Part shown: positions 19 to 21,100 of the stretch, piece after piece | How the letters are laid out: every line of letters begins with the position of its first letter | How positions within the stretch are numbered: position 1 is the first letter of the stretch | Assembly (NCBI GenBank): GCA_020723505.1 | Contig: DYIT01000030.1 | Coordinates: forward strand, 1 to 41,784 | Reading direction: 5' to 3' | DNA length: 41,784 bases | Origin: Candidatus Kuenenia stuttgartensis | GTDB lineage: Bacteria > Planctomycetota > JAKEIC01 > DYIT01 | The notes under the pieces: generated by a model | Seen by the model: only the letters and a program-made list of their open reading frames with translations | The model's database searches: none | Told to the model about the DNA's origin: nothing | Made by a program: the position numbers and the translations under genes

Positions 19-819
19 TTATTCAGTCATAACCCTCTCCGGGCAGGAGTAGACGTTCATCCTGCCGGATCTCGCGAAGCCTATCAGGGTGAGCATGAAC
101 CTGGACGCTATGTCCACGGAAAGGGCGGTCGGAGCTGATCGCGAAACGACGATCGGAATCCTGCCGCGCACGGCCTTGAGCGCGATGTCCGAGGAAATCC
201 TGCCGGAGCAGCACAGCAGCAATCCGCCTATTTGAAGGCCGGTCCTCAGCGCATGTCCGATGACCTTGTCCACCGCGTTGTGCCTCCCGATGTCCTCGGT
301 CATTACGACTATCCGGCCGGCCGGGTCGCCCAGCCCCGCCACGTGCGTTCCCCCCGTGGCTTTGAAGACCGGGGATCCCTCGGCAAGCGACTTCATGAGC
401 TTCCACACCGCGGCCGGGGAAACCCTGGTCGTAGTGTCAATCTTCATGCACCCGCGCCGCCGTCCGTCTCCGCCCGACCTGCCTGCCCCGCAGCCGGATC
501 CCAGCACCTGCCCGCGTTCGAAAGCGGCCGCGGCCTCCTCGTCGGCAGGTCCCTCCGCATGAACCTCCAGACGGCCGGGATCAAACCTCAATGCAAGCGA
601 CGCGGGTTCGGGGGATATCCCCTCGCTGAACAGGAAGCCCGCGGCCAAATCCTCCACGTCCCGCGGAAGACATGAGAAGGAAAGCAGGCGCTTCCCGTTC
701 AGGAACAGCGCGACCTCGGCCTCCTCGACGACGTCGTCCAGGGCGCCTGACGCTCCCGAAGCGTCGACTTTGACGATTTCCATTTTCCGCAGGGCTGCCT
801 GCTTTTCTTCTGCGCTCAT
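19..819 (-). CDS. fdhD: FdhD, sulfurtransferase for formate dehydrogenase maturation
   Basis: A 266-residue FdhD-family protein. The family carries sulfur from a cysteine desulfurase to the molybdenum cofactor of formate dehydrogenase in the cytoplasm. The start is the ATG at 819 (MSAEEKQAALRK), preceded by GGAGGAG about 6 bases upstream; longer readings run into the upstream 109-bp repeat and are spurious. Family hallmarks are the N-terminal ALFLNGKRLLSFSC and ATGGTHVAGL segments, TEDIGRHNAVDKVIGHAL, CCSGRISSDIALKA and the C-terminal region. The conserved sulfur-relay cysteine is C110 in GSGCGAG. The second Cys of the CxxC loop found in E. coli FdhD is Gly here. It is encoded opposite the formate dehydrogenase cluster, which it very probably serves together with fdhE at the far end. 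Confidence 0.95.
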   Translation of the reverse strand: MSAEEKQAALRKMEIVKVDASGASGALDDVVEEAEVALFLNGKRLLSFSCLPRDVEDLAAGFLFSEGISPEPASLALRFDPGRLEVHAEGPADEEAAAAFERGQVLGSGCGAGRSGGDGRRRGCMKIDTTTRVSPAAVWKLMKSLAEGSPVFKATGGTHVAGLGDPAGRIVVMTEDIGRHNAVDKVIGHALRTGLQIGGLLLCCSGRISSDIALKAVRGRIPIVVSRSAPTALSVDIASRFMLTLIGFARSGRMNVYSCPERVMTE

Positions 820-854
820 TGCGACTCCTCCGTAACCAGGACGACACCGCCCTG

Positions 855-871
855 CAGAAAACGTTTTTCTG
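855..871. promoter_or_regulatory. Small inverted repeat upstream of fdhD
   Basis: CAGAAAA-cgt-TTTTCTG is a perfect 7-bp inverted repeat with a 3-base centre, about 35 bases upstream of the fdhD start. Its size and place fit an operator or a small hairpin in the leader. No known regulator site is recognised. Confidence 0.3.
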
Positions 872-892
872 ATACCAACTGCGAAGCATAGT

Positions 893-1152
893 CTATCCCA
901 CGCGAAGCGCCTGGCATACAGCTTCGCCTGCGGGAACAAACGGATCCTCCGCCAGTTCTCCCTCTCCCCCGGTTCGGGGAGAGGGTTGGGGTGAGGGGCG
1001 TCTATCCCACGCGAAGCGCCTGGCATACAGCTTCGCCTGCGGGAACAAACGGATCCTCCGCCAGTTCTCCCTCTCCCCCGGTTCGGGGAGAGGGTTGGGG
1101 TGAGGGGCGTCTATCCCACGCGAAGCGCCTGGCATACAGCTTCGCGTGGGAT
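893..1152. repeat. 109-bp tandem repeat, two full copies plus a truncated third ending in a hairpin
   Basis: Copies start at 893, 1002 and 1111, exactly 109 bases apart, and the first two appear identical. Each unit contains CCTCTCCCCCGGTTCGGGG followed by AGAGGG and GGGTGAGGGG, the intergenic motif that gives spurious PHPNPLP peptides in many genomes. The third copy stops after about 42 bases and closes a 15-bp perfect inverted repeat (TATCCCACGCGAAGC ... GCTTCGCGTGGGATA, 1112-1153). A related element lies at 26608-26799. It fills the space between fdhD and the divergent barrel gene. Confidence 0.9.
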
Positions 1153-1426: not shown

Positions 1427-3073
1427 ATGAAAAGACGCGCGATTCTTTTCCTGTGTGCAGTAGTGATAGCCTCGCTTTCAATTGGGGCGCAGGCGCTGGC
1501 CCAGGCCGGCGATACGGGGAAGAAGGATGAGGCCAAGCCCGGGGGGAACCCGGGGGACCCGAAGAATCCCGCGCCCAAGGAGACGCCGAAGGAAGCGCCC
1601 AAGACCGACCCGAAGGCGCCGCCCAAGGACGTGAAGCCCGCCCCGAAGCCCGAGGAGAAGGCCGCTCCCAAGGAGACCGCCAAACCCGCGGAGGAGAAGA
1701 AGGCGGAACCTGCGGCCGAAGGAGAGGAGGGGGTCTTCTCCCCGAAGCTCACGGGCAGCCTGAGCCTCAAGTACAAGATAAAGTATGCCGAGTACACGGA
1801 CGACACGGGCGACAAGGCGGAGGAGACCGACCAGGACCTCCAGATGCTCCTCAACCTTTCGATGAAGAACCTGTACAAGAACCAGATTCATTTCCACATG
1901 ATGGGCGGCTACAACATCGACACGTGGGGCAGGCAGGACAGCAAGCACAGGGCAGAGGTCTTCGAGTTCGCCGACGTATACGACACGTACAACCACAAAG
2001 CCCACGGCAAGCTCTACTACAGCTACCTGGAGACCGACGACTTCCTGCTCGAGGGGCTCGACATGAAGTTCGGAAGGGTCGGCATCGAGAAGGGGGAATC
2101 CATCCACATCGACGGCCTTGCCGTGAGCTACGAGCCCGAGAAGGCCCTGGTGGTGACGGCGTTCGCCGGGCTGCCGGTCTATTTCTGGAAGCACCACATG
2201 GTGGACAACTTCACGGCCGGGTTCTACATAGAATTCCTGCCGTTCCACCTGGTGGAGGACGTGCCCGGAGACACGACCAAGCTCACTCTCGAGTACATCT
2301 ACGTGAGCGAGGACCAGAACGACGCGGGAATCGAGGACAACTTCTTCTCGGTGGTGCTGGACCAGAAGCTCTTCCACAGGACCGTGGACCTCCAGGCGCG
2401 CGCGAGCGTGCTCAATGGAGAGTTCCGCGACTTCAAGATTCGCGGCACCCTGCGCGACCCCGAGAACGACATCAGGCTCAGGCTCATGTTCTTCACGCTG
2501 CCCGTCAAGCTCGAGGAGGAGCTCTCGATAGACATGAGCCCGTTCATGGACGTCATGGGACGCTACAACCCCTACAACGAATTCAAGCTCGACATCTTCA
2601 AGGGATTCGTCGACGGGAAGTTCGGAATCGAGCTCGGTTACCACGGGAGGATGCTGAAGAAGGAGCGCTACGAGGGCAAGTTCAACCATGATTTCGACAG
2701 GCTGTACGCCACCGGCTCCGCCTACGACTTCCTCGAGTCGCACCTCGACATCTCCGTGACGGTCGAATACGTGCAGTCCATGACGCCGGACGACGAGGAC
2801 AAGATTCTGACCATGGGGTTCGACCTCGGCTACAAGTTCAGCGACGAGGTCAAGTTCGGCATCGGCATGCATTACCACAGGTGGGAGATGGCTTACCTTT
2901 CCACGCAGGATACCGTGGAGGAGCTCGAGAACGTCCGGCTCTTCAGCCTGTTCATAGACGTGAAGCCGGTCCAGGGCCTCAAAATCGGCCTGAACTACTC
3001 CTTCGAGACAGTAGGCGGCGACCTGAAGCGCGAGTACGACCGCTTCATGCTGTCCGCCACCTATTCCTTTTAG
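1427..3073 (+). CDS. Outer-membrane beta-barrel, porin-like partner of the multiheme cytochrome
   Basis: A 548-residue exported protein. The ATG at 1427 gives a clean Sec signal (MKRRAILFLCAVVIASLS, ending near AQA at 27); a TTG at 1412 is the alternative start. Residues 28-101 are a Lys/Pro/Ala/Glu-rich linker without fold. From about 102 the sequence alternates polar and hydrophobic residues with many aromatic strand ends (KLTGSLSLKYKIKYAEY, FKLDIFKGFVDGKFGIELGY) and ends in YSF, the C-terminal Phe signature of outer-membrane barrels. It lies 17 bases before a multiheme cytochrome and upstream of formate dehydrogenase genes. By analogy with MtrB/DmsF barrels that sheath multiheme cytochromes, I infer it holds the cytochrome across the outer membrane. 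It is shorter than MtrB, and homology to that family is not proven by eye. Confidence 0.75.
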   Translation: MKRRAILFLCAVVIASLSIGAQALAQAGDTGKKDEAKPGGNPGDPKNPAPKETPKEAPKTDPKAPPKDVKPAPKPEEKAAPKETAKPAEEKKAEPAAEGEEGVFSPKLTGSLSLKYKIKYAEYTDDTGDKAEETDQDLQMLLNLSMKNLYKNQIHFHMMGGYNIDTWGRQDSKHRAEVFEFADVYDTYNHKAHGKLYYSYLETDDFLLEGLDMKFGRVGIEKGESIHIDGLAVSYEPEKALVVTAFAGLPVYFWKHHMVDNFTAGFYIEFLPFHLVEDVPGDTTKLTLEYIYVSEDQNDAGIEDNFFSVVLDQKLFHRTVDLQARASVLNGEFRDFKIRGTLRDPENDIRLRLMFFTLPVKLEEELSIDMSPFMDVMGRYNPYNEFKLDIFKGFVDGKFGIELGYHGRMLKKERYEGKFNHDFDRLYATGSAYDFLESHLDISVTVEYVQSMTPDDEDKILTMGFDLGYKFSDEVKFGIGMHYHRWEMAYLSTQDTVEELENVRLFSLFIDVKPVQGLKIGLNYSFETVGGDLKREYDRFMLSATYSF

Positions 3074-3090
3074 TTGATGAAGGTGCAACG

Positions 3091-4293
3091 ATGAAGAAGA
3101 ACCGCTGGTCGCTATATATGGGCGTTGGGCTGTCCGCAGCGCTCCTCGTCCTCTTCTCCTGCTCGTACTTCGAGTACCTGAAGGAGAAGGAGGTGCAGAG
3201 AGAGAAGGTCTTCAGCCACAAGCCGCACTCCGTGGACAATGACATGGCGTGCACGGACTGCCACGCCGGCGCCTTCGCCAAGGAGCGCGCCGGAATGCCC
3301 GAGCTCTCGGTATGCACCGGCTGCCACGAGGAGACGGACGCGAAGACCCCCGTGGGCCTTGCAATGACCAAGCTCAAGGAGCGGGAGAAGACGGACAAGC
3401 CCCTGTGGCGCATGGTCCATGCCGAGGGGGATCTCCTGTTTTCGCACAAGACGCACTCCGGCATCGCCGAGCTCAAGGCCGGGAAGAAGACCGCCTGCGC
3501 GGCCTGCCACGGAAAGGCCGGCGAGTCCGAGGGGCTCTCGGGGTCGGCGGTCGCGAAGATGAAGTCCTGCATGGCCTGCCACGAGAAGGGCGAGCCCGCG
3601 CCGGCCAAGGCCGCGGAGAAGCCCGCGCCCGCCAAGGAGGCCCCGGCGGCGCCCAAGGAAAAGGGCAAGGAGGCCGAGGCGAAGAAGGATGAGCCCGCCC
3701 CCAAGGAGGAGCCTGCTCCGGCGGTCAAGACGGGCAAGGAAATGACAGCATGCTCGTTCTGCCATTCCGAGTGGAGGCAGGACGTGAAGCCCGCGGGACA
3801 CAAGGCGCTCTGGAGGGTCACGCACGGCGAGGAAATCAGGTTCGGAATCGACAAGGAGAAGATGTACTACTGCCGCGCGTGCCACGGCGAGGACCTCTGC
3901 GTCCGCTGCCACCAGGTTGAGAAGCCGAGAAGCCATACAGAGTTCTTCAGGACCCGCGGCCATGGCATCGAAGCCGAGGTCAGCCGCGAGCGCTGCTCCA
4001 CCTGCCACAGGCAGGACTTCTGCATCCACTGCCACTCGGACACGAGACCCCGCAGCCACACCGCTTCGTGGGGGCTGGCTCCCTACAGGCACTGCAACGA
4101 TTGCCACATGACCATGTCTGGGACCTCATGCGGCGTGTGCCACAAGGCCGGCTCGGCATCAATAGCGGCCGCCCACGCCGCCAAGGCGCCGCTGTATCCC
4201 AAGGACCTCACGCATGCGGCCAACTGCACCATGGAATGCCATACTTCCAGGCACCCGGACCCCGGTCCGACATGCAAGAACTGCCATAAATAG
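3091..4293 (+). CDS. Multiheme c-type cytochrome lipoprotein (12 CxxCH plus one CX3CH)
   Basis: A 400-residue exported cytochrome. The start at 3091 yields a short signal with a lipobox-like end (VLFSC, Cys24), so it is probably a lipoprotein. Twelve CxxCH heme sites can be read: CTDCH, CTGCH, CAACH and CMACH in an N-terminal module, then CSFCH, CRACH, CVRCH, CSTCH, CIHCH, CNDCH, CGVCH and the terminal CKNCH. CTMECH is a CX3CH variant that may bind a thirteenth heme. Between the modules (about 168-212) is a Lys/Pro/Ala/Glu linker very like that in the upstream barrel. The FSHKxHS segments before the early sites resemble class III cytochromes. The expected role is electron transfer between the formate dehydrogenase encoded next and an acceptor in or beyond the outer membrane. 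It is co-directional with both neighbours. Confidence 0.88.
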   Translation: MKKNRWSLYMGVGLSAALLVLFSCSYFEYLKEKEVQREKVFSHKPHSVDNDMACTDCHAGAFAKERAGMPELSVCTGCHEETDAKTPVGLAMTKLKEREKTDKPLWRMVHAEGDLLFSHKTHSGIAELKAGKKTACAACHGKAGESEGLSGSAVAKMKSCMACHEKGEPAPAKAAEKPAPAKEAPAAPKEKGKEAEAKKDEPAPKEEPAPAVKTGKEMTACSFCHSEWRQDVKPAGHKALWRVTHGEEIRFGIDKEKMYYCRACHGEDLCVRCHQVEKPRSHTEFFRTRGHGIEAEVSRERCSTCHRQDFCIHCHSDTRPRSHTASWGLAPYRHCNDCHMTMSGTSCGVCHKAGSASIAAAHAAKAPLYPKDLTHAANCTMECHTSRHPDPGPTCKNCHK

Positions 4294-4339
4294 GAAAAGA
4301 TAAACAAACGTACGGCGTTTTTATTTGGGAGAAGGACGG

Positions 4340-7300
4340 ATGAATGTATCACGCAGGTCATTCCTCAAGCTGTCCGCAGCGGGCGCGTTCGCCGCGACGT
4401 TCGGCTGCACGGACCGCGACCGGCCGGTCCCCAAAACGACTGAGCACCAGCCGTTTCGGACCGAGCTCAAATCCGGGACGGAAACCACGACAATCTGCCC
4501 GTTCTGCGGGGTCGGATGCGGCGCAATCGTCACGACCGCCACAATCAACGGGGCGCCGAAGATTGTCAACATCGAGGGAGACCCGGACCACCCGATAAAC
4601 CGCGGCGCGCTGTGCAGCAAGGGCTCCTCGATGTACCAGATTGCCAACCAGCCGCTGTTCAGCCTGGCGGACGAGCCGAGCGGCAACAACGGCCGCAGGC
4701 TCGCCAATCCGATGAAGCGCCTTGCGGGCACGAATCAGTGGACGGAAATCACCTGGCAGACCGCGATAACCGAAATCGCCGCGGCCATGCAGGCCACGAG
4801 GGACGCGGCGTTCGTGACGCCGGAAAACCGCTGCGAGAACATGTACTGCCTCGGCGGCGCGGCGCTCGACAACGAGGAATGCTACCTCATATCGAAGATG
4901 GCGCGTGCGCTCGGGATTGCATATCTCGAGCATCAGGCCCGAATATGACACAGCCCCACTGTTGCGGCTCTGGCAGAGTCGTACGGAAGGGGAGCTATGA
5001 CGAACCACTGGGTCGATATCAAGAACGCGGACTGCATCATGATTATCGGGTCCAACGCCGCCGAGAACCACCCCATGAGCTTCAGGTGGATTGAGGAGGC
5101 CAGGAAGCCCGTGGCCAACGGCGGACGGAACGCGAAGCTCATCGTCATCGACCCGAGAATCTCCCGCAGCGCCAACCAGGCGGACATGTACGGGAGGATA
5201 AGGTCGGGCACGGACATCGCGTTCATCGGCGGGCTCATCAACTGGGCCCTCACCCACAACATGTACAACGCCGATTACGCCAAGAACTACTCGAACCTCG
5301 CTTACGTGCTCAACGGGTTCGACGCGGCCATTAACCCCGGTCCAAATTACAACAACTTCACGGGCGAATTCCCGGGATACAACTCTGCGACGCACAAGTA
5401 CGACGGCGCCGGCACCAGCGCGTGGACCTACGCGATAGGCGCCTCCGGCCCCACGGTCGACAACACGCTCGCCAATACCGAGACCGTCTTCAACGTGCTC
5501 AAGAAGTTCTACGCCCGCTATACCTCGGACCTCGTATCCAGGATTACGGGCATGGACAAGACCCTGTTCGAGCAGATTGCGCAGGAGTACTGCTCCACGT
5601 ACGCGGACGGGAAATCCGGGCTCATCATGTACGCAATGGGCACCACGCAGCACACCTACGGCACGCAGAACATAAGGGCATACTCCATCCTGCAGACCCT
5701 GCTCGGCAACATCGGCGTAGCCGGCGGCGGCATCGCGGCCATGCGCGGCGAGTCGAACGTCCAGGGTTCTACCGACATGGGCCTGCTGTTCGGCAACCTC
5801 CCGGGCTATCTCGACATTCCCAACAGCACGATGGCGACCCTGGGCATCCAGACCACGACGTCCACCCAGAAGCTCACGGGAACGCTCACCGCAGGCACGG
5901 CCTCCGGCAGGGTCATCTCCGGTCTCACGGGCGTGGACGCGACTCAGGTTCGCAGCGGCGACAAGATCCAGAACACCACCCTGGGCGGAACCGCCAACAC
6001 CTACACCATCGAGGCGGTAATCAACGCCACTACCGTGCGCATCACAGCGAACATGGGGACCGCCTGGACGCTCGGCGACGGCTATGCCATCACCTCGGAA
6101 TCAGGCATCAACCACCTGACGGGCTCGACTTCTTTCCTCGGCCAAACAGTCGCCAAAGGCGTTGCAGGGACAGCGGACATCCTCAACACGGCGCGGTTCA
6201 GCAACAACTGGAAACAGCACGAGGTGAAGTACATGATGAGCCTTCTCGCCGCGTGGTGGGGAAGCTCCAACAGCTTCATCCTCGGCGGCGCGAACGGCGA
6301 CTTCTGCTACGACTTCCTGCCGAAAATCAACTCGGCAGTCAACTACTCGTACATGAGCGTCTTCAAGCAGATTGAGACCCTCGCTGCCACACCGAGCGTA
6401 CCCCAGCTCATGATGTGCTGGGGCATGAACCCGGCGGTAGGCGGCCCGGACGTCATTCACGGCAGGAAGATGCTCGCGAACCTGACGACCCTCGTGTGCG
6501 TGGACCTGTGGGAGACCGAGACGGCGGCATTCTGGAAGGAGGACCCGGCCAACCCGGGCTATTCCTACGCAGCCTCGGGATCGCAGGACGCAACGCTGAC
6601 GCCCACGGCCATCCAGACCACTGTCTACCTCCTCCCGGCCAAAGCTTCCATGGAAAAGGAAGGAAGCGTGTCGAACTCGGGCAGGTGGGTGCAGTGGCGC
6701 TACGGGGCCGAGGACGGCGGCGTGATGGTGCAGAAGGGGACCGCGAAGTCCGACCTCGACATAGCCAACGACCTCATGCTGCAGCTCAAGACCAACTACG
6801 CCGCGGCCACGACCATAGCCGGAGGCCTCGGAATCAAGGAAATGTCCTGGGGCCCCAACACGCCCAACAACTACGGCATCCAGTTCTCCGAAGCGGATCC
6901 AAAGGCTGTGATGAAGGAAATCAACGGATACACGCTGCTCTACCCCGCGAACATCGGCGGAACCGCCGCGAAGGGCAACCAGCTCTCTAGCTTCATTTCG
7001 GACCTCAAGTTCGACGGGACCACGGCCTGCGGAAGCTGGATTCACTGCGGATGCTGGGTCCAAACCGACGTCACTACTCCGACCGGCACATACCAGGGCA
7101 ACAGGGCGGCAAAGAGGATTTCGGTCGACAACTCTGCCACGGGAATCGGCCTCTACTCCGACTTCTCCTGGTGCTGGCCGGTGAACAGGAGAATCATCTA
7201 CAACCGCGCTTCCATGAAGCCCGTGGCCGTGGACGGCTATGTGCCTTTCCAGACGGACAAGTGGGTCATGAAGTACGACTACGTCACCTCGACCTGGTTT

Positions 7301-7975
7301 GCGGGAAGCGACGTGGTCGACGGCGGCGCGAATACAAAACCCGACGCCTACATGCCGTTCATTATGAAACCGGAAGGCGTTGCCAGATTGTTCGGGCTGA
7401 ATTCGACAAAGCATGTCGACGGCCCGCTTCCCGAGCACTACGAGCCCGCGGAAACTCCGCTTGCGACACACCCGTTCGGGGCTTCCCACGTCATGTGGAA
7501 CCCGATCGTGATGCACATGGATGCGGGCCCCGTGCTCTGGGCCCAGTACAACTTCGTCCCCGGGACAGTGGCCAATTATCCGTACGTGGGCACGACCTAC
7601 AGGCTGGTCGAGCACTGGCAGGCAGGCGCCATGACGCGCAACCTGCCGTGGCTCGTGGAGCTCCAGCCGGAGATGTTCGTCGAGATGAGCTACGAGCTCG
7701 CTGCCCTGCTTGCAGTGAACAACGGCGACCATGTCAAGGTAACGACCGCCAGGAACCCGAACAACCCGGTGCTGGCCGTCGCCCTCGTGACGAAGCGCAT
7801 CAAGCCGTTCACAATCATGGGGAACACGGTGCACCAAATCGGCATGCCATGGCACTTCGGGTACCGCGGCCTTGCACAGGGAACCAGCGCAAACAGGCTG
7901 ACGCCGAACATCGGCGACGCCAACACGCGCATCCCCGAGTACAAGGCGTTCCTGTGCAAGGTGGAGAAGGTGTAA
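4340..7975 (+). CDS. fdnG: Formate dehydrogenase catalytic subunit, selenocysteine-containing, Tat-exported
   Basis: A 1,211-residue molybdopterin oxidoreductase of the FDH-N/O type that oxidises formate to CO2 at a Mo/W-bis-MGD centre. The reading frame passes an in-frame TGA at 4946-4948: before it YLEHQAR-I, after it HSPTVA and YGRGAMTNHW, exactly the setting of selenocysteine in FdnG, so residue 203 is Sec. The ATG at 4340 follows GGGAGAAGG. The N-terminus has a Tat motif (SRRSFLK) and a possible lipobox Cys23. The [4Fe-4S] ligands are C53, C56, C60 and C91 with the following SKG. The C-terminal cofactor-binding domain ends in HQIGMPWHFGYRG and NRLTP. It is longer than FdnG (about 1,015), partly because of a beta-rich insert at about residues 508-588 (5861-6105). 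It needs FdhD, FdhE and the selenocysteine machinery, the last not present here. Confidence 0.95.
4946..4983 (+). promoter_or_regulatory. Selenocysteine UGA and SECIS-like hairpin
   Basis: TGA at 4946-4948 is followed by a stem with arms 4963-4971 and 4975-4983 (nine pairs, two of them G-U) closed by the loop GGC at 4972-4974. The loop starts with G and lies 24 bases after the TGA, inside the spacing usual for bacterial SECIS elements. It sits inside the coding sequence, as bacterial SECIS elements do. Confidence 0.75.
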
Positions 7976-7989
7976 ATCCGGATGAAATC

Positions 7990-8007
7990 CCCGCGGCCGG
8001 CCGCGGG
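7990..8007. repeat. Perfect 18-bp palindrome between the two formate dehydrogenase genes
   Basis: CCCGCGGCCGGCCGCGGG is a perfect palindrome in the 50-base gap between the catalytic and Fe-S subunit genes, just before the AGGAGG ribosome site of the latter. In RNA it could form a short GC hairpin that affects mRNA stability or the ratio of the two subunits. Confidence 0.6.
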
Positions 8008-8025
8008 AATGTCTAGGAGGATAAC

Positions 8026-8829
8026 ATGGTCGAGTACGGTTTGCTGATTGACCAGTCGCTCTGCATGGCGTGCAGGGGATGCCAGGTCTCCTGCAAGCAG
8101 TGGAACGAGCGCCAGGCCATCGTCACGACGAACGTCGGGACCTACCAGAACCCGCAGGACCTTTCCTGGCAGACCTGGACCTTCATGAGGTTCTCGGAAT
8201 ACGAGGAGCCGGGCGGCAAGGTCCGCTGGCTGTTCAGGCGCGAGTTGTGCAGGCACTGCGAGAATCCCGGATGCCTCGCCGCATGCCCGGTCCCCAATGC
8301 CATCGTCAGGGACCAGGGCGGCATGGTTATTGTGAACAGGAACCTCTGCGGCGACTGCAACCGCGAGTGCTTCTACGGCTGCCCCTGGGGCGTCCCGCGC
8401 TTCCCCGGCACCAACAACGAGGCATGGAAGTGCTGGATGTGCCGCGACAGGCTCTACGAGGGCAAGCCGTCGGCATGCTCGTCCGCATGCCCCGTGCAGG
8501 CCACGAGGACCCTGGAAAAGAGCGTGCTGCTCGCAACGGCTTACGAGAGGCTCAGCATCGTGAAGCAGAAGCACCCGCGCGCCAACATCTACCCGCCGAC
8601 GGGCTACGGTTCCAACGTCGTCTGGATTCTCGTCGACAGCCCTGAACATTACGACTTCTCCTTCCCCACAACCTCGGTATCGAGCGAAGGCGCGAAACCC
8701 GCGGCGAAAGGCTTCCTGAGCGAGGCCGCGAGACCCATGCTCGCCGCCACGGCCCTCACGGCCGGAATCGCGGCGGCCGCGAAGTTCCTCGACCGCAGGG
8801 AAAAGGTCGCCAGGGCGGAGGCGAAGTAG
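8026..8829 (+). CDS. fdnH: Formate dehydrogenase Fe-S (beta) subunit
   Basis: A 267-residue ferredoxin-like electron-transfer subunit with four Cys clusters: CMACRGCQVSCKQWN, CRHCENPGCLAACP, CGDCNRECFYGCPWGVPRF and CWMCRDRLYEGKPSACSSACP. The sequence matches FDH-N-type beta subunits, which pass electrons from the catalytic subunit. The start at 8026 has an excellent AGGAGG site. The C-terminus (about 238-258) has one short, Ala-rich hydrophobic stretch followed by charged residues, a weak counterpart of the membrane anchor helix of FdnH. There is no signal peptide, so it would be carried out through the Tat pore with the catalytic subunit. No cytochrome b gamma subunit follows; a terminator does. 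Electrons therefore probably go to the multiheme cytochrome encoded upstream. Confidence 0.93.
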   Translation: MVEYGLLIDQSLCMACRGCQVSCKQWNERQAIVTTNVGTYQNPQDLSWQTWTFMRFSEYEEPGGKVRWLFRRELCRHCENPGCLAACPVPNAIVRDQGGMVIVNRNLCGDCNRECFYGCPWGVPRFPGTNNEAWKCWMCRDRLYEGKPSACSSACPVQATRTLEKSVLLATAYERLSIVKQKHPRANIYPPTGYGSNVVWILVDSPEHYDFSFPTTSVSSEGAKPAAKGFLSEAARPMLAATALTAGIAAAAKFLDRREKVARAEAK

Positions 8830-9102: not shown

Positions 9103-9963
9103 ATGGATATCAATAGGCACTCGACGCTCGATCAGGTCGCGGCCGCGATTGAGAAGGCGAAGACCGAATCGGCCCACCCTGCAGAGTACTTCAACTTCAG
9201 AATCGAGCTCGCGAAAAGCGCCGCCCTGGCATGGAAGGAGGCGTCGCCCCTCGCGTCAGCCTCCGGCCTGCCGGACGACCTTGCGCTGAAGCTTGCGGCC
9301 GGGAACGTGGTCCTCAAGCCCGAGAAGCTCGAAATCGGCGAAGAATGGGCGGCAGGACGCGCCGCCGATACCACCGGGATCTTCGCCCGGCACGGAATGG
9401 CTTTCGGCGAGGCGCTCTCGGCTTTCGTAGCCGACAAGGGAGGGGCGCCGGTCGCCGGATGGATTCGGATGCTCCTCAAGAGGGACAGGAAGGGCCTGGC
9501 GAAGGAAGCAAGGACTTTCGATATGCAGGGATCCATGCTCGCTTTCTTCGCGGCCGAGGTCGCGAGGCCGGTCATGGTCAGGACGGCCGAAGCCCTGAGA
9601 CCCGCACTCGACGAGGAGAGATGGAAGCGCGGAAACTGCCTCGTGTGCGGATCGGACCCGTGCTTCTCGAAATACGAGGGCGAGGGCGGCGCGAGGTACC
9701 TTCTGTGCATGGCCTGCGGCACGATTTGGAAGTTCCAGCGCATCCACTGCCCGTTCTGCGGATGCACGGACGGCAAGAAGCACGGGTTCATGTCCTACGA
9801 CGACGACCCCTCGTACCGGATTGACCACTGCGGCGAGTGCAAGAGATACATGAAGGCCCTGGACCTCCGGGGGAAGCTCGCGCAGGAAAGGGTCCTCGAA
9901 GCCGAGGACGCCATGACCCTGTACCTGGATCTCGCCGCCGAGAAGAAGGGGTTCAAGAGGTGA
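9103..9963 (+). CDS. fdhE: FdhE, formate dehydrogenase accessory protein
   Basis: A 286-residue cytoplasmic maturation factor needed for assembly of exported, Tat-dependent formate dehydrogenases. The C-terminal half has the rubredoxin-like CxxC pairs typical of FdhE that bind iron: CLVCGSDPC, CMACG, CPFCGC and CGECK. The ATG at 9103 follows GAGGAGAAGG; the in-frame upstream reading would pass through the structured leader and is unlikely. Its position after the formate dehydrogenase operon, behind its own candidate riboswitch, implies separate control of this maturation step. The stop codon is the first three bases of a hairpin shared with the convergent neighbour. Confidence 0.93.
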   Translation: MDINRHSTLDQVAAAIEKAKTESAHPAEYFNFRIELAKSAALAWKEASPLASASGLPDDLALKLAAGNVVLKPEKLEIGEEWAAGRAADTTGIFARHGMAFGEALSAFVADKGGAPVAGWIRMLLKRDRKGLAKEARTFDMQGSMLAFFAAEVARPVMVRTAEALRPALDEERWKRGNCLVCGSDPCFSKYEGEGGARYLLCMACGTIWKFQRIHCPFCGCTDGKKHGFMSYDDDPSYRIDHCGECKRYMKALDLRGKLAQERVLEAEDAMTLYLDLAAEKKGFKR

Positions 9964-9989
9964 TTTTTCGCGCCATGCGCGAAAAATCA
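9961..9989. terminator. Bidirectional hairpin containing both convergent stop codons
   Basis: A 13-bp perfect stem (9961-9973 with 9977-9989) with the 3-base loop CAT. The left arm begins with the TGA of fdhE and the right arm ends with the TCA that is the TGA of the minus-strand vWA gene. A/T-rich outer stem segments give T runs in both directions, so it can end transcription from both sides. Confidence 0.75.
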
Positions 9990-11696
9990 GTCCGCTTTCA
10001 CGTACTTCCCGTCGTTCTGCTCGGCGAGCTTCTGCATGAACGGGACGTTGTGGTCCCCGACACCGACCGTGTGGATTGTTATCTTCCTGAGCTTGTTGAG
10101 CTTTGCAATCTCCTCCAGTATCGCACCGGCCTCGGGCACCCTTCCCGCGTTCGGGCTGCCGTCCGAGAGCAGGAAGATGGTGTCCGCGCCGCCCATGGTC
10201 TGCGCGTATCGCTCGTCCGCTTGCTCCTTGGGCTTGCCCGGACCCGCCATCTTGAACGCCTTCTCCATGGCGTCGAATATGTTCGTCGTCCCGTTTGGCC
10301 CCTGCTTGTCGATGAACTCGTACGCCTTCTGCTTGTTCTGCGGATTGGCCCTCACCATCTCCTCCTGCCAGATCTCGAAGTGGTCGCTGTAGAAGATGAC
10401 GTTGAACCACGCCTTCTGCGACAGGAGCCTTATGGACTTCTTGAGCTCGTACTTCACGAAGTCGAGCTTCGTGTTCCCGGTGGGGCCTTCGTCCTTGGGC
10501 TCGTCCCCCTTCTTCTTCTCGCCCTCGCCGGTTATCACCGGCCCGGGCTTCTCGCCTTCCCTGGCCCTTCTCGTAGCCGGCCCGGCCATCGAGCCGGACA
10601 CGTCCAGGACGTAGATGATGTTGTGCGACTTGGTCTCGATGCCGTAGAAGGACCCAGTGATGTGCGGCTTCCCCGGCTCCGGCCTCGGCACGGGCGCCGG
10701 CTCGGGTGCCGGATCGCCCTTGAAGCCTTCCTTGCCGGCGGGGGCGGGCGCCCCCTCGGCCGGGGCGAACTTCGAACGGTTGTCCTTCCACCACTTCTGC
10801 CAAAGCTTGCCGTCGCCGTAGTAGGAGAGCCCGGTTATCTTCTCGAGCACCTTCTCGTAGTCCTCGGCGGCCCTGCCCTCGGCCGCGCACAGGCCTTCGA
10901 TGAGCGCGTCGACGGTCTCCGCGTCGCGGTATCCGAACCCGGCTATGACCTCGAGCGCCTGGGCCACGACCTCCCATTCCCTGTCCTTGAGCATGGCCAG
11001 GTACTTCTGCCTCTCGGTCTTGAGATCCTTGGCCATCGCCGCGGAAAGCGCAGCCACGCGGACGTGCGGGTCCTTGTCGGAAAGGGCGGTTACGATGCAG
11101 GCCCCTGCCCGCGCCTCGTCCTTGATTTCCGCCATCGCCTCGACGACGCCGACGCGCACCTCCCAGTCCGGGTTCTGGAGGCCTTTTGCGAAGAGCCAGT
11201 CGAGCGCCTTGCCGTCGGTCTTCGAGGTGAACCCGCCCAGCGCAATCCTCTTCACCTTGAGGAGCGCCGTGATTCCCTCCTGGACCGTCTTGAGCCCCTC
11301 CTGCAGCTCCTTGAGCCTTTCCATGTCCTCGGCCTTCTCGTACCGCCTCTTGTCGCCCTCCTGGACGAAGGGGATTTTATCGATGGCCTTGCGCAGGTCC
11401 GCCTCCTGCTTGACGGCAACGGCAAGCTGGGCGTTCGCCAGCTTCACGGTTCCTGCGAGGAGCGGGAGCGCCCTCGCGTCGTCGGCCTTGGCAAGCTTCG
11501 ACACGGCCGCAATCTTGGCTTCCGCGTCGTTGCCCTGGAACGCCGCGTTCAGTTCGGCCTGGATCTTCTTCCATTCCTGGTCCGTCAGCTCGCCCGCCGA
11601 CCGCCGGCCGGACAGGAGGGAAAGAAGAATGCAGGCTGCCAGGGCGGGCATTCGCAGCCCGGCCATGCACAGCGAAAACGGAAGGGGGTTCTTCAT
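9987..11696 (-). CDS. Exported HEAT-repeat plus von Willebrand A domain protein (second of a pair)
   Basis: A 569-residue protein. The ATG at 11696 (MKNPLPFSLCMAG) follows AAGGAGA and gives a Sec-type signal ending near RRSAGE. Residues about 35-290 are helical HEAT-like repeats (DPHVRVAALSAAMAKD, DREWEVVAQALEVIAGF) ending in WQKWWKDNR. A Pro/Ala-rich hinge leads to a vWA domain from about 345 with an intact MIDAS: DVSGSM, the NGTTNIFDA Thr loop and LLSDGSPNAGR. Such domains bind a divalent cation and protein ligands. It lies 16 bases downstream of a paralog with the same architecture, so they form an operon. The ligand and cell process are unknown. Confidence 0.85.
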   Translation of the reverse strand: MKNPLPFSLCMAGLRMPALAACILLSLLSGRRSAGELTDQEWKKIQAELNAAFQGNDAEAKIAAVSKLAKADDARALPLLAGTVKLANAQLAVAVKQEADLRKAIDKIPFVQEGDKRRYEKAEDMERLKELQEGLKTVQEGITALLKVKRIALGGFTSKTDGKALDWLFAKGLQNPDWEVRVGVVEAMAEIKDEARAGACIVTALSDKDPHVRVAALSAAMAKDLKTERQKYLAMLKDREWEVVAQALEVIAGFGYRDAETVDALIEGLCAAEGRAAEDYEKVLEKITGLSYYGDGKLWQKWWKDNRSKFAPAEGAPAPAGKEGFKGDPAPEPAPVPRPEPGKPHITGSFYGIETKSHNIIYVLDVSGSMAGPATRRAREGEKPGPVITGEGEKKKGDEPKDEGPTGNTKLDFVKYELKKSIRLLSQKAWFNVIFYSDHFEIWQEEMVRANPQNKQKAYEFIDKQGPNGTTNIFDAMEKAFKMAGPGKPKEQADERYAQTMGGADTIFLLSDGSPNAGRVPEAGAILEEIAKLNKLRKITIHTVGVGDHNVPFMQKLAEQNDGKYVKAD

Positions 11697-11712
11697 GCGG
11701 GGGTCTCCTTCA

Positions 11713-13416
11713 TCATTTCTGCACGTATTTGCCGCCGTTCTGTTCCGCAAGTTTCCTCACGAACTCCTCGAGCCTGCTCTGCTCCTCGGGCTTGTCGGAT
11801 TCCGTGGTTATGCCCACGGCGTTGATGATAATCTTGCGGACCTTGTTCCGGTGGCGGATGTCCTTGAGGATGAGGTCCGTATCCGTGATTTTCCCCGCGG
11901 TCGGCACGCCGTCGGACAGGAAGAAAATCGTGTCCACGCTGTTCTCGAAGTTCTTCTTCTCGTTGTCCCCTCCCCCGAGGGTGAAAGCCTTGACCAGGGA
12001 ATCGTAGATGTTGGTCCCGCCCCCGGCCTTGATTTCGTCTATGAGCTTGATTGCCTGGAGCTTCATCCCCTTTGAGGCCGGGACCATCTTGGGCTGGAAC
12101 ATCTTCACTTCCGTGCCGTAGTAAATCAGGTTGAAGAGCGCGTCCTCCTCCAGGTTGGCGATGGCCTGCTTCAGCTCCCACTTCGCCACGGATATCTTCC
12201 TGTCGTCGGCCGGGCCCGGAGCCGCGGGGCTTCCGCCGAAACCGCCGCCGCCGGCCGGGGGCGCCGGAGCCGGCTTCTGTCCCCCGCCGTCCTTCTTCCC
12301 GGACTTGGATTTCCATTCCATCGATCCAGATACGTCGATTATGAAGAGTATGTTCTTCGACCTCGTCTTGATTCCGTAGAAGGAGACGGTCTTGTCGTGC
12401 GATTCCGCCGCGGGACCGCCGGCGCCCGCGGCTTTCCCGGCCTTCACGTCCGATCCGTGCGACGCCCACCAGGCTTTCCACATGAGGTAGTCGCCGTCAA
12501 GCGACTTGCCGGTAAGCTTCTGAAGCGCCTCGTCTATGTCCCCCCTTATCCTCCCGGGCTCCTTCTCGAGCGCAGCTATCAGCGGCTCGACCGCCGCCAG
12601 GTCCCCGAAATCCCCGAGAATCCTCACGGCCGTGCATCTCACCTGCCAGAATTCGTCCCCGAGCGCCTTGAGAATCGCGCCGTAGATTTCCGCGAGGCGC
12701 AGGGCGCGGACCGGCGTGCGGAATGGGAGGCGGGCTTCGTTCCAGAACGCCGCAGGCAGGAGGTCGCACGGCGCCTCCTCGGGCCTCCCCGCGAGGCTTT
12801 CAATCGCGGCCGTTCTCACCTGCGGGTCCCTGTCCATCGCCGCCTCGAAGATCTCGGCCGTGAGAGCCTGGCTCCCAATCAGCCCGAAGGCCCGTATGAC
12901 GGCAATCTGCACTGCCTGCGATTTGGACTTCCTCCACGACGCCTTCAGCCAGCCGAGAATGGCCGGATCGCGCGTCCTGGCGATGGCCTCTACCGCCGAG
13001 TCCTTGAGGTCCGATTCCCTGAGTATCGCGTCGTGTATCTCCTTGAGCTCGGCCTGGAGGTTCTTCATCCTCTGCATGTCGTCGAGCGTCATCTTGTTTC
13101 CGAGGCTGGCGGCTATCTTGTTCAGCTGCTGGATGTCCTTGAGAATCTCCCTCTCCTTCTGTTCCAGGGGGGCGAGGCGGGGGTTGTTCTTCTCGATGAA
13201 CATGACGAGGAGCTGCACGGCCTTGAGGTAGTTGGCGTCCCCAAGCTTCGCGATTATCTCGAACCGTTTCCTTTTGGACAGGCCGTAGAGGTCCTCGCGG
13301 GCCTCCTCCTCGAGCTTCTTCCACTCGGATTCGGTCCTGATTTCCGCGAATGAACGCGGAACGGCAGTGGATGCGGCGAGCAGGAGCGGAATCAGATACG
13401 CCGCGAACCGCGTCAT
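11713..13416 (-). CDS. Exported HEAT-repeat plus von Willebrand A domain protein (first of a pair)
   Basis: A 567-residue paralog of the next gene. The chosen ATG at 13416 (MTRFAAYLIPLLLAAS) has GAGGGA about 8 bases upstream; a TTG five codons earlier is possible. After the signal peptide come charged helices (about 25-110), then HEAT-like repeats (DPQVRTAAIESLAG, WQVRCTAVRILGDFGD) and a WKAWWASHG segment. A Gly/Pro/Ala hinge precedes the vWA domain (about 335-555) with the MIDAS residues DVSGSM, GGGTNIYDS and FLSDGVPTAGK. The FYGIKTRSKNILFIIDVSG lead-in is nearly the same as in its neighbour, so the pair arose by duplication. Extracytoplasmic adhesion or scaffold work is plausible, not shown. 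Confidence 0.85.
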   Translation of the reverse strand: MTRFAAYLIPLLLAASTAVPRSFAEIRTESEWKKLEEEAREDLYGLSKRKRFEIIAKLGDANYLKAVQLLVMFIEKNNPRLAPLEQKEREILKDIQQLNKIAASLGNKMTLDDMQRMKNLQAELKEIHDAILRESDLKDSAVEAIARTRDPAILGWLKASWRKSKSQAVQIAVIRAFGLIGSQALTAEIFEAAMDRDPQVRTAAIESLAGRPEEAPCDLLPAAFWNEARLPFRTPVRALRLAEIYGAILKALGDEFWQVRCTAVRILGDFGDLAAVEPLIAALEKEPGRIRGDIDEALQKLTGKSLDGDYLMWKAWWASHGSDVKAGKAAGAGGPAAESHDKTVSFYGIKTRSKNILFIIDVSGSMEWKSKSGKKDGGGQKPAPAPPAGGGGFGGSPAAPGPADDRKISVAKWELKQAIANLEEDALFNLIYYGTEVKMFQPKMVPASKGMKLQAIKLIDEIKAGGGTNIYDSLVKAFTLGGGDNEKKNFENSVDTIFFLSDGVPTAGKITDTDLILKDIRHRNKVRKIIINAVGITTESDKPEEQSRLEEFVRKLAEQNGGKYVQK

Positions 13417-13504
13417 TGAGCCATCCCTCAATCGGCCCTTCTTCGTGTCGGATAAACAGAATGTACCAAAGAGCGCCGGCGCTTTCCACTGCTCAACTGC
13501 TCTA

Positions 13505-17999: not shown

Positions 18000-18124
18000 T
18001 CCAGTTCATTACCCCCCACCGGAACGGAGTGTTGTCTGACCCCATGGGGCAGTTACGTCCATGTCCCGCTCGGAAAGACCGGGATCGCGGGAACGGCCCC
18101 GGGTCCATCTCGAAGGAGGCCGAA

Positions 18125-21100
18125 ATGAGGCCGAATCTCGTCATCTGCGCGGCTGCCGTCATACTTGCATTCATGCCGGGGTGCTCTTCGGAAAGGAAAC
18201 CCCGTCCGCCGGTCCGGCCCGTGGGCTCCGGCGAGTTCGAGCTCGCCCAGACGCTGGGCGCGAGCTGGAATACAAGATTCGTGCTTGCGGGGGACTTCGA
18301 CGGCGACGCTGATCTCGACCTGTTCTTCGCCAACTACGGCGAACAGAACCGCCTGCTCATCAACAACGGGGCCGGCGAGTTCACGGACGGGACCGGGCTC
18401 GAAGCGCAAACGACCACCGGGCTGCCTGCCGCCGAGGACCTTTCGAACCATGCCGCAGCGGCGGACGTGGACGGGGACGGCGACCTCGACATCCTGGTCG
18501 CAAACAACGGCCAGAACACGCTCCTGATCAACGACGGCCTAGGGAGGTTCACGGATGGGACGGATCCCTACTTCAACATGTCATCGGGCCTCCCTCTGGT
18601 GATGGACGACTCGAAGTTCATCGCGTTCATCAACGTCGACCAATCCCACGGCGACACGGACATGGACGCGATTGCAATCAACAACGGCCAGAACAAGCTC
18701 CTTCTCAACGACGGCCACGGCGAATTCCTGGACGGGACCGATCTCGCCCAGACCTTCACCTCGGGAATGCCGGTCGGCAACGACAACGGCCAGTGCGCCC
18801 TTGTCCTCGACATCGACGCGGACGGCGACCTGGACTTCATGACCGGCAACATCGGCGGGCCCGACAGGATATTCCTGAATTCCCCCACCAAGGTCACGGT
18901 CTCGCCCGAGGTCTGGCAGGACGGCTGGGGGGAATTCAAGGAGACCACTTTCGATACGGCGACGAACGCCATCTCGCTGCCGTACTATTCCGATGCCACT
19001 TATGACGTGAAGGCGGCAAACCTGGACATGGACGGCGGCGCGACAATGGACCTCGTGCTCGCGTGCAACGGCGGATCCCGGATCCTCCTGAACCAGGGCA
19101 GCGGATTCTTCCAGGACGCCCAGGCCGACTGGAAAAGGGAACGAGCCTTCGTCAACGGCGGATTCAGCGCCCTCGCGGGCGTGAGCTCGCACCTCTATGC
19201 AGTCGGCGTCATGGGCCAAATCAGCCACAATCCCGACGGATCGTCATGGGGCCCCGAGGGCGGCGTGACCGGCAACGACCTCCTTTGCGCCGCGGGCATT
19301 CCCGCGACCATACGGACCTTCGCAGCCGGCAAGGCCGGTGTGGTCGTCGAGAACACGTCCGGCTCGTTTGTCGCGCTCAACCAGGCGCTCACCCAGGGCG
19401 ACCTCCGGGGATGCACGGCCTTCGCCCTCAACAACGCGTATTTCGTGGGCGACGGCGGGACGATTCTCAAGTGGAACGGCTCGGCGTTCTCCTTCGACTA
19501 CAGGTTCTCCGCAAACAACCTCACATCGGTGCACGGCGGGTCCTCCTCGGACGTGACGGTCGTGGGCTACCAGGACGCGATTCTGCAGTATAACGGCACA
19601 GGATGGACCGTGCAGCCCACCAACCTGACGGCGCCGGGGACGCTGCTCGGCGTCTACCACCAGGCGGCGGACAACAAGTATGCCGTAGGCGCAGGCGGCC
19701 TCATCCTCCGCTACTACAACGGCGCCTCGGGCCTCAAGTGGTATCAGCAGACGAGCCCGACCACGTATTCAATCAACTCCGTATCAGGATCGGGACCGAC
19801 GAACGTCTACGCCGTCGGCAGCGCCGAACTGATTGCCGGCGACTACAACGTGATGCGCTCCGACGGGAGCTCGTGGTCCTTCGTGAGCTTGAGGAGCATG
19901 CAGTATCTTAGAGTGAACTCCCCCTCGGGCGCGTACACCGTCGGCGAAACCGTCATCGGATCGTCATCCGCCGCCAACGCCACGGTCCTGAGCTGGGACC
20001 CCGCTTCGAGGCTCCTGCTGGTCTCGGTCGCCTCGGGCGTGTTCAGCGTGACCGCGCCCGACCAGGTCCAGGGCCAGACATCGGGCGCCTCGGGAACTCT
20101 CGCGTACGTCTGCCAGGCGATTCCGACTCCCAGGAACCTGAACGACGTCTACGTCGATTCCGCCTCGGGCGAGGTCTTCATCGCGGGCGAGTACGGCACG
20201 GTCATCCACTACGACGGAGCGTCGGTGTGGGAACTCCAGGCCGTCACGAACCTCACGGTTTCATCCCCCTCGGGCAACTACCAGGTCGGGGAGACCGTGA
20301 GCGGGTCGATCTCGGGCGCCACCGGCCGGGTCACTGCATGGAACTCGACCACTAACGTGCTTACCGTCAACCCGATTCGCGGGATTTTCGACTACGCGGC
20401 CCCTGACCAGATTGCAGGCCAGACCTCGCTCGTCACCTCCACGCTGACCTTCTCGGGCCCTGCATGCACGTCCTCGCTCAGGGGAATCGCCGGCACTTCC
20501 AACACGGACTGCTTCATTGTCGGCACAGGCCCCGCTGTGCAGAGGTACACGGGATCGGGCGTCTGGACCGACGTCACGCCTGCAGGGGTCACCGCCAACC
20601 TGAACGCCGTCTGGGTGCAGGGCAACGACCTGTACGCCGTCGGCGCAGGCGGAACCATCATCTCATGCAATACGTCCACCATGACGTGGAACACGTCGAT
20701 AACCTCGCCGGTGACCGAGAACCTCCTGTCCATCTGGGGCTCCTCGGCGACCGACCTCTTCGCCTGCGGGGAAAACGGCACGATTATCCACTACAACGGC
20801 ACGAACTGGTTCGTCGAATCCGCAGGCTCGCTTAACGGAATCTCCGCTTCCGGCCCCAACGACCTGTGGGCGGTAGGCGACAGCGGCTGGATTCTCCACG
20901 GCGACGGAGCCGGCCATTGGACTCCCCAGACCGCCGTGCCGTCGAGCGCGGACCTGCTCGCGGTCCAGGCACTCACGCCGAGCGACGTCATGGCAGTAGG
21001 CAGGAACGGGACAGTCCTCAGGTACAACGGCTCGACCTGGACGCTCTCCAGCCCGGCGATCGTGGACCTGTACGCCGTCTTCGCAATCGACGCGACCGAC

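Follow-up and report, generated by a model that had tools for sequence, protein, structure and literature searches.

Known outer-membrane conduits are either fed with electrons from quinol through periplasmic cytochromes or feed surface reductases themselves. FdhAB of Desulfovibrio vulgaris is a two-subunit periplasmic formate dehydrogenase (FDH) that has a cytochrome as partner. In Shewanella, DmsEFAB is an extracellular DMSO/iodate reductase whose barrel, multihaem cytochrome, molybdoenzyme, and Fe-S subunit are encoded in one operon (PMC11302344), and the MtrB barrel is formed by 26 strands (PMC7198977). The Pcc pair of Kuenenia stuttgartiensis consists of the genes for a porin-like barrel and a multihaem cytochrome (Shi et al., 2014; PMC4245776). 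The published Pcc cytochromes of Kuenenia and Anaeromyxobacter comprise 338–344 amino acids with 12–14 haems, and the description of the Kuenenia cluster comprises two genes, without a partner in the outer membrane (PMC4245776). This pair is the nearest described relative of the pair analyzed here, which is found in an operon with the genes of a selenocysteine (Sec)-containing FDH.

Conduit genes within a formate dehydrogenase locus

The window, i.e., the complete stretch of 41,784 nucleotides that was analyzed, originates from an uncultured planctomycete (assembly GCA_020723505.1, 89% complete). According to the ORFs of the window, the genes for barrel, cytochrome, FDH alpha, and FDH beta follow each other on the forward strand at positions 1427–8829, separated by gaps of 17, 46, and 50 nt, which confirmed the sequence-only reading that the four genes are consecutive and co-directional. 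Divergent to them lies a gene for an fdhD-like sulfurtransferase involved in FDH maturation (19–1026, reverse strand), whose product matches PF02634 (E 3.9e-66, residues 100–332) and scores above the TIGR00129 cut-off. The true start of this gene is probably located near position 819, and the 5′ extension of its ORF crosses a repeat at 960–1106. The operon is followed by a gene for an fdhE-like maturation factor (9103–9963, forward strand), which scores above the cut-off of PF24859 and, with 56.5 bits, under that of TIGR01562 (187.65 bits). With fdhE behind and the divergent fdhD in front, the conduit genes thus sit within an FDH locus. Counting against a coupling of conduit and FDH, the stretch between the cytochrome and FDH genes contains a weak hairpin together with a U run; this hairpin is absent from the terminator list.

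The barrel gene (1427–3073, forward strand, ATG start at 1427) encodes a protein composed of a signal sequence, a Pro/Lys/Glu-rich linker of about 80 amino acids, a 22-strand barrel (residues 107–547), and a C-terminal Phe. In the AlphaFold2 model, which was calculated from a six-sequence alignment, the strands lie in blocks with pLDDT values of mostly 80–95, and the barrel is predicted to be wide and without a plug domain rather than to have a narrow closed pore that could not hold the cytochrome. VIA-align gave Z values of 16–19 with TonB-receptor barrels and ushers; the matches listed by Foldseek and VIA were generic porins, TonB receptors, and ushers; MtrB was not among the listed matches, which carries no weight against an MtrB-like fold. 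The family is conserved (27-member alignment), but the window barrel had no match in Pfam or NCBIfam, and neither the single sequence nor the 27-member profile matched a PDB sequence. A membership in the MtrB/DmsF family, for which a profile search had been proposed, was rejected because the curated MtrB/PioB models matched none of the 27 members.

The adjacent gene (3091–4293, forward strand) encodes a c-type cytochrome with 13 haem sites, 12 of the CXXCH type and one of the CX3CH type, all of which are kept in an alignment of 11 members. Its lipobox (LFSC) with a nearly invariant Cys24 identifies it as a lipoprotein. Three parts can be distinguished. The N-terminal 4-haem head (residues 25–164; 3163–3582) is related to QrcA, ActA, and cytochrome c7: the QrcA model scored 41.6 bits over residues 12–168, and the ActA chain 6btm_A as well as 8k9e_A were matched. 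The C-terminal 9-haem core (residues 219–400; 3745–4290) equals the whole of a deltaproteobacterial relative (233 amino acids, 9 haems), which lacks the head and whose gene adjoins that of a homologous barrel. Head and core are joined by an Ala/Pro/Lys-rich linker (residues 165–218; 3583–3744), owing to which the spacing of haems 4 and 5 is 61 residues, compared to 13–25 in the other 50 members with thirteen motifs. A flexible insert of about 48 residues between head and core is thus restricted to the window cytochrome (1 of 51 members). Assignment of the cytochrome to MtrA/DmsE, the second family relationship to be examined, was likewise rejected: TIGR03508 (DmsE) gave 15.5 bits at a cut-off of 192.2 bits. 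The cytochrome profile weakly matched chain 6r2q_A (E 1.8e-5), which we take to be MtrA although the entry is labelled otherwise. Structure prediction without haem yielded no usable fold (pLDDT 40.5), as expected given the missing cofactor.

To place this pair, we compared it with homologous loci, nearly all of which belong to Planctomycetota. The barrel gene is located directly upstream of the cytochrome gene in 60 of 64 distinct cytochrome loci, a pairing that is not due to chance; on this comparative evidence, the two genes are a genuine porin-cytochrome module. They also show the gene arrangement that defines Pcc, a barrel gene beside the gene of an exported multihaem cytochrome. Seven loci of the anammox family fall within the profile matches and the tree, and the homologous cytochromes of anammox genomes have 338–388 amino acids and 13–14 haem motifs. 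They match the published Kuenenia pair, based on its description and on HZS-positive genomes. The genome from which the window originates encodes another conduit, whose cytochrome has 10 haems.

The formate dehydrogenase and the third-gene slot

FDH alpha (4340–7975, forward strand) scored 933.3 bits with TIGR01553 (cut-off 814.2) and is open through a single in-frame TGA at 4946–4948 in the context ARIUHSPTVA. With a score above this equivalog cut-off and a Sec active site, it has the characteristics of the alpha subunit of formate dehydrogenase-N; its best PDB match is DvFdhA (E 7.8e-226). A SECIS-like hairpin starts 5 nt behind the UGA (codon and hairpin, 4946–4995, forward strand; MFE −21.2, z −2.7), and the genome encodes a tRNA-Sec (71 bits, gathering score 47). 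Together with a twin-arginine motif (SRRSFLK) at the N-terminus, these features bear out the proposal of a Tat-exported Sec-FDH. The signal sequence also fits the lipobox pattern (FAATFGC). Since this possible lipobox is also present in two related conduit-free FDHs (L145, L148), it is no mark of surface export; the latter are soluble two-subunit enzymes of other planctomycetes and their genes stand alone. An insert of about 105 residues (5867–6196, forward strand), apparent as a gap in the DvFdhA alignment, is missing in the six planctomycete homologues aligned and had no match in Pfam.

FDH beta (8026–8829, forward strand) gave an E value of 8.7e-50 with 1kqf_B and matches both FdnH and DvFdhB. 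All four [4Fe-4S] clusters with their 16 cysteines are kept, and a hydrophobic C-terminal tail (8734–8790) is found at the FdnH position, although the protein scored far under the cut-off of the FDH-beta equivalog (180.8 versus 334.7 bits). Tail and clusters favour a periplasmic FDH tethered to the inner membrane, but as the tail is only moderately hydrophobic (KD 1.46), such tethering is uncertain. A gene for a cytochrome-b gamma subunit was not detected in the window, as had been noticed before, and none is obvious elsewhere in the 89% complete assembly. The sole PF01292 match lies on another contig beside 8-haem cytochromes and the sole NrfD match within an alternative-complex-III-like cluster; a gamma gene could sit in the missing part of the genome. 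Neither of the two observations named beforehand as refuting the sequence-only reading, a gamma gene elsewhere or a narrow barrel, was made.

In the homologous loci, the third gene usually encodes a large MtrC/OmcA-like decahaem cytochrome, often with a lipobox; in one locus it scored 269 bits with the MtrC/OmcA family (cut-off 209). Based on mechanical ORF calls, a neighbouring multihaem gene is present in 33 of the 64 loci, tblastn added 5 more, and 6 loci end at a contig edge. In three other planctomycete genomes, the third gene encodes a TtrA/PhsA/DmsA-like molybdoenzyme of the DMSO-reductase family, accompanied in the two complete loci by a DmsB-like Fe-S protein without a hydrophobic tail. 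An FDH-N in this position was found only in the window. No other FDH-conduit operon was present among 392 sampled Planctomycetota genomes, and the association is therefore without replicate; at the level of the class of the source organism, the search covered two genomes. Our search of the open-access literature likewise revealed no report of such an operon. In the tree, the window cytochrome is placed apart from the three molybdoenzyme-partnered cytochromes, so the FDH pairing looks like a separate partner switch. Of the suggested parallel to dmsEFAB, the layout of a conduit serving a molybdoenzyme was strengthened by the wide distribution of the module and by the three molybdoenzyme loci, whereas family homology to MtrB/DmsF and MtrA/DmsE was not supported by the curated models.

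Possible electron path from formate to the cell exterior

From this arrangement we infer the physical coupling of enzyme and conduit, the location of the enzyme, the direction of electron flow, and the outside acceptor as follows. The operon may encode an FDH that is hard-wired to a cytochrome conduit across the outer membrane, so that formate electrons bypass quinone; we assign this reading a probability of just under one half (about 0.48). FDH alpha and beta would be exported folded via Tat, tethered to the inner membrane through the C-terminal helix of beta and possibly also a lipid on alpha, and oxidize formate on the periplasmic side. Since a cytochrome-b subunit is lacking, electrons from the Fe-S chain of beta would enter the lipoprotein cytochrome at its 4-haem head, travel along the 9-haem core, which the 22-strand barrel would enclose, and finally reach an outside acceptor; the quinone pool would not be used. 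The linker, being unique to the FDH-partnered cytochrome, counts in favour of such a coupling.

The gene slot of the FDH, on the other hand, normally encodes surface proteins, which counts against a periplasmic enzyme as the best explanation. As in the Dms system, FDH alpha and beta might be located on the outer face in place of the MtrC-like cytochrome and oxidize outside formate, with the conduit taking the electrons inward, where quinone and the pool of periplasmic cytochromes would receive them. The decahaem cytochromes that otherwise hold the slot, many with a lipobox, argue for this possibility, as do the parallel molybdoenzyme replacements in three genomes with beta subunits (two seen) devoid of a tail, the lipobox pattern of FDH alpha, the lack of another surface cytochrome in the operon, and the type II secretin homologues present in the genome. 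The tail of the window beta would, however, keep the complex in the inner membrane, and the possible lipobox is shared with the conduit-free enzymes. Lipobox and gene slot on one side and the beta tail on the other are thus at odds, and we consider a surface location less probable than a periplasmic one. Improbable in our view is that conduit and FDH are chance neighbours, the former serving general extracellular electron transfer, the latter feeding other periplasmic cytochromes, and the operon providing only co-expression. The occurrence of the pairing in a single genome, the stand-alone FDHs of other planctomycetes, and the second conduit would agree with this, but the conduit genes are enclosed by fdhD and fdhE, the downstream slot repeatedly holds the redox partner of the conduit, and the linker is specific for this member. 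Reverse flow, in which the conduit would bring in electrons of an electrode or extracellular donor for reduction of CO2 to formate and carbon fixation, is highly improbable: the nearest solved relative, DvFdhAB, is known to reduce CO2 and conduits of this kind are able to carry electrons either way, but the formate couple near −420 mV lies under the usual conduit range, so that inward flow needs a very reducing outside donor, of which the window gives no sign.

More broadly, we tentatively regard the system as a conduit-coupled or cell-surface Sec-FDH in which formate/CO2 in the periplasm or outside trades electrons across the outer membrane via a dedicated 13-haem porin-cytochrome, with the flexibly tethered 4-haem head as moving contact. 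Such a system would be the counterpart of DmsEFAB with an oxidative enzyme, and it would have arisen independently. The data suggest that an uncultured planctomycete links formate chemistry directly to the cell exterior. If true, the dedicated FDH of the operon would allow electrons of formate to exit the cell without the quinone pool, and the planctomycete conduit would accept exchangeable partners, namely a surface cytochrome, a TtrA/Dms-like enzyme, or an FDH. Nature would thereby provide a blueprint for connecting electrodes with CO2/formate chemistry, and, as the conduit of anammox relatives is homologous, their extracellular electron transfer would become more accessible to study.

The type of porin-cytochrome conduit is already known, and the new element is the FDH in its operon. 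With Kuenenia Pcc the window shares barrel and multihaem cytochrome, to which it adds the FDH and the long cytochrome linker. As in DmsEFAB, conduit genes are joined with those of a Tat-dependent molybdoenzyme and its Fe-S subunit, but the enzyme is a Sec enzyme of the FDH-N type instead of a DmsA-type reductase, the cytochrome is not DmsE but a lipoprotein with 13 haems, and beta has a C-terminal tail. MtrCAB likewise has a barrel sheath around a multihaem cytochrome, and related loci carry an MtrC/OmcA-family third gene; the window operon lacks MtrC, and its barrel is unrelated to MtrB by sequence models, with 22 predicted strands instead of 26. E. coli FdnGHI is resembled by alpha, which scores above the FDH-N cut-off, and by beta with its four clusters and C-terminal tail, but not by the locus, which lacks the gamma cytochrome b, nor by the score of beta far under the FDH-beta cut-off. 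D. vulgaris FdhAB provides the best PDB sequence match of alpha and differs by the absence of the insert of about 105 amino acids and of the beta tail, and the partner cytochrome of the window enzyme would be a conduit. Finally, the 4-haem head is related to QrcA and ActA of menaquinone reductase and alternative complex III, from which the window cytochrome differs by the 9-haem core that continues the head and by its pairing with a barrel.

Gene order and the formate dehydrogenase

The assembly to which the window belongs as a single contig spans 4.95 Mb and is 89% complete. The run of barrel, multihaem cytochrome, Sec formate dehydrogenase (FDH) alpha and Fe-S beta genes proposed in the sequence-only reading was borne out at 1427-8829, with the barrel at 1427-3073, a 13-haem cytochrome at 3091-4293, FDH alpha at 4340-7975 and FDH beta at 8026-8829, all on the plus strand. 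An fdhE-like gene follows on the same strand (9103-9963), and an fdhD-like gene lies upstream on the minus strand (19-1026). The mechanically assigned start of the latter is probably wrong, since it runs into two identical GC-rich, REP-like palindromic repeat copies (CCCTCTCCCCCGGTTCGGGGAGAGGGTTGGGGTGAGGG; 960-997 and 1069-1106, 109 nt apart). In the 46-nt gap between the cytochrome and FDH alpha genes, a U run accompanies a weak hairpin, which is absent from the list of the terminator scan. On the opposite strand, 3′ of the fdhE-like gene, two adjacent HEAT-repeat and von Willebrand A proteins are encoded (9987-13431, minus strand), apparently tandem duplicates, of which the first one alone was scanned. 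At 18029-22702 lies the gene for a protein of 1557 aa, in which at least eight FG-GAP repeats were recognised.

With 933 bits, FDH alpha is above the cut-off of the FDH-N alpha model (814), and its closest PDB match was FDH alpha of Desulfovibrio vulgaris. Its UGA codon sits in the canonical ARIUHSPTVA context and is followed by a hairpin (z -2.7); a tRNA-Sec is present in the genome. An insert of about 105 Thr/Gly/Ala-rich residues (5867-6196) had no Pfam match and is missing from seven aligned homologues. FDH beta contains 16 cysteines, for four clusters. As also proposed, a gene for a cytochrome-b (gamma) subunit is absent from the window, and none was obvious elsewhere in the 89% complete assembly. 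The genome's only Ni_hydr_CYTB-type cytochrome b (contig C128, 2489-6268) adjoins two 8-haem cytochromes and no FDH.

Barrel and conduit cytochrome

The barrel matched no recognised family in sequence and profile searches. The AlphaFold2 model shows 22 strands, most blocks having a confidence of 80-95, and about 80 disordered linker residues at the N-terminus. The best structural matches (Z 16-19) included TonB receptors, ushers and other porins. TonB receptors and ushers have 22 to 24 strands; a plug domain is absent from the barrel sequence. By analogy with MtrB, 22 strands could be enough for a conduit barrel, because the first four of the 26 strands of MtrB make no contact with MtrA (PMC7198977).

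The conduit cytochrome is a predicted lipoprotein whose 13 haem motifs are all kept across an 11-member alignment. Its 4-haem head (residues 1-164) is related to QrcA/ActA and is followed by a 9-haem core that occurs alone, beside a homologous barrel, in a deltaproteobacterial relative. Haem spacing is near-constant in this family. The gap between haems 4 and 5 has 61 residues in the window only and 13-25 elsewhere (51 members with 13 motifs). The roughly 48 extra residues are Ala/Pro/Lys-rich and lie exactly at the head/core boundary. They may give the head access to a partner off the barrel, such as an FDH tethered to the inner membrane, or they may be a neutral low-complexity loop, as the window's barrel also carries such a linker.

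Distribution of the conduit and its partners

A profile search with the cytochrome matched 112 of 392 sampled planctomycete genomes, about 60 loci at full length; many weaker matches covered the head alone. The collection holds only two genomes of the window's class. Related loci with organism names belong to Planctomycetota, one being a Candidatus Brocadiia MAG (L038). The barrel gene directly precedes the cytochrome gene in 60 of 64 distinct loci. The anammox family, recognised by its hydrazine synthase alpha (present in five of the six genomes tested), also has the pair, with cytochromes of 13-14 motifs, and fits the published description of the Kuenenia porin-cytochrome pair (PMC4245776). 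The window's own genome encodes a second, distant pair (contig C138, 7526-12104), preceded by a 10-haem cytochrome; the translation of its 15-motif cytochrome includes an XXXX run (undetermined bases).

The slot directly downstream of the conduit cytochrome is most commonly occupied by a large decahaem cytochrome, often with a lipobox and MtrC/OmcA-like in tested examples. In G060, G160 and G319 it holds a Tat molybdoenzyme with TtrA, PhsA and DmsA as nearest models, followed by a DmsB-like Fe-S gene in the two complete loci of the three. An FDH occupies the slot in the window only (64 loci compared). In the cytochrome tree, L024, a locus with a decahaem partner, is the window's sister (support 99/89), and the three molybdoenzyme-partnered loci lie elsewhere (deep branches are weak); this suggests that the window's FDH was acquired as partner by an independent switch.

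Coupling, location and relation to known systems

Operon structure, use of the slot and absence of a gamma gene make it likely that the FDH is coupled to the conduit. Its location, periplasmic or at the surface, is less certain. FDH beta has a hydrophobic C-terminal tail (KD 1.46) where E. coli FdnH has its membrane helix. This favours a periplasmic enzyme anchored at the inner membrane, from which electrons would flow outwards to some acceptor. Such a tail is kept in relatives in which a multi-TM gene follows (L146, 2.20; L147, 2.37; L149, 1.53), and the stand-alone two-subunit FDHs L145 and L148 have a beta subunit without it. The same tail speaks against a surface enzyme on the model of Shewanella DmsEFAB, here with inward electron flow, a less probable alternative for which the slot and a possible lipobox on FDH alpha argue. 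The twin-arginine signal peptide of FDH alpha ends in FAATFGC, compatible with the lipobox pattern. L145 and L148, related planctomycete FDHs with no conduit, have LSSC and DIGC at this position.

Earlier work already describes porin-cytochrome conduits, the Kuenenia pair among them, as well as DmsEFAB. The molybdoenzyme loci of three other planctomycetes (L105, L108, L121) are candidates for Dms-like extracellular reductases outside Proteobacteria. As our searches of open-access literature gave no report of an FDH within a porin-cytochrome operon, we call the FDH-conduit operon, present in one genome, new as a variant of the known conduits.
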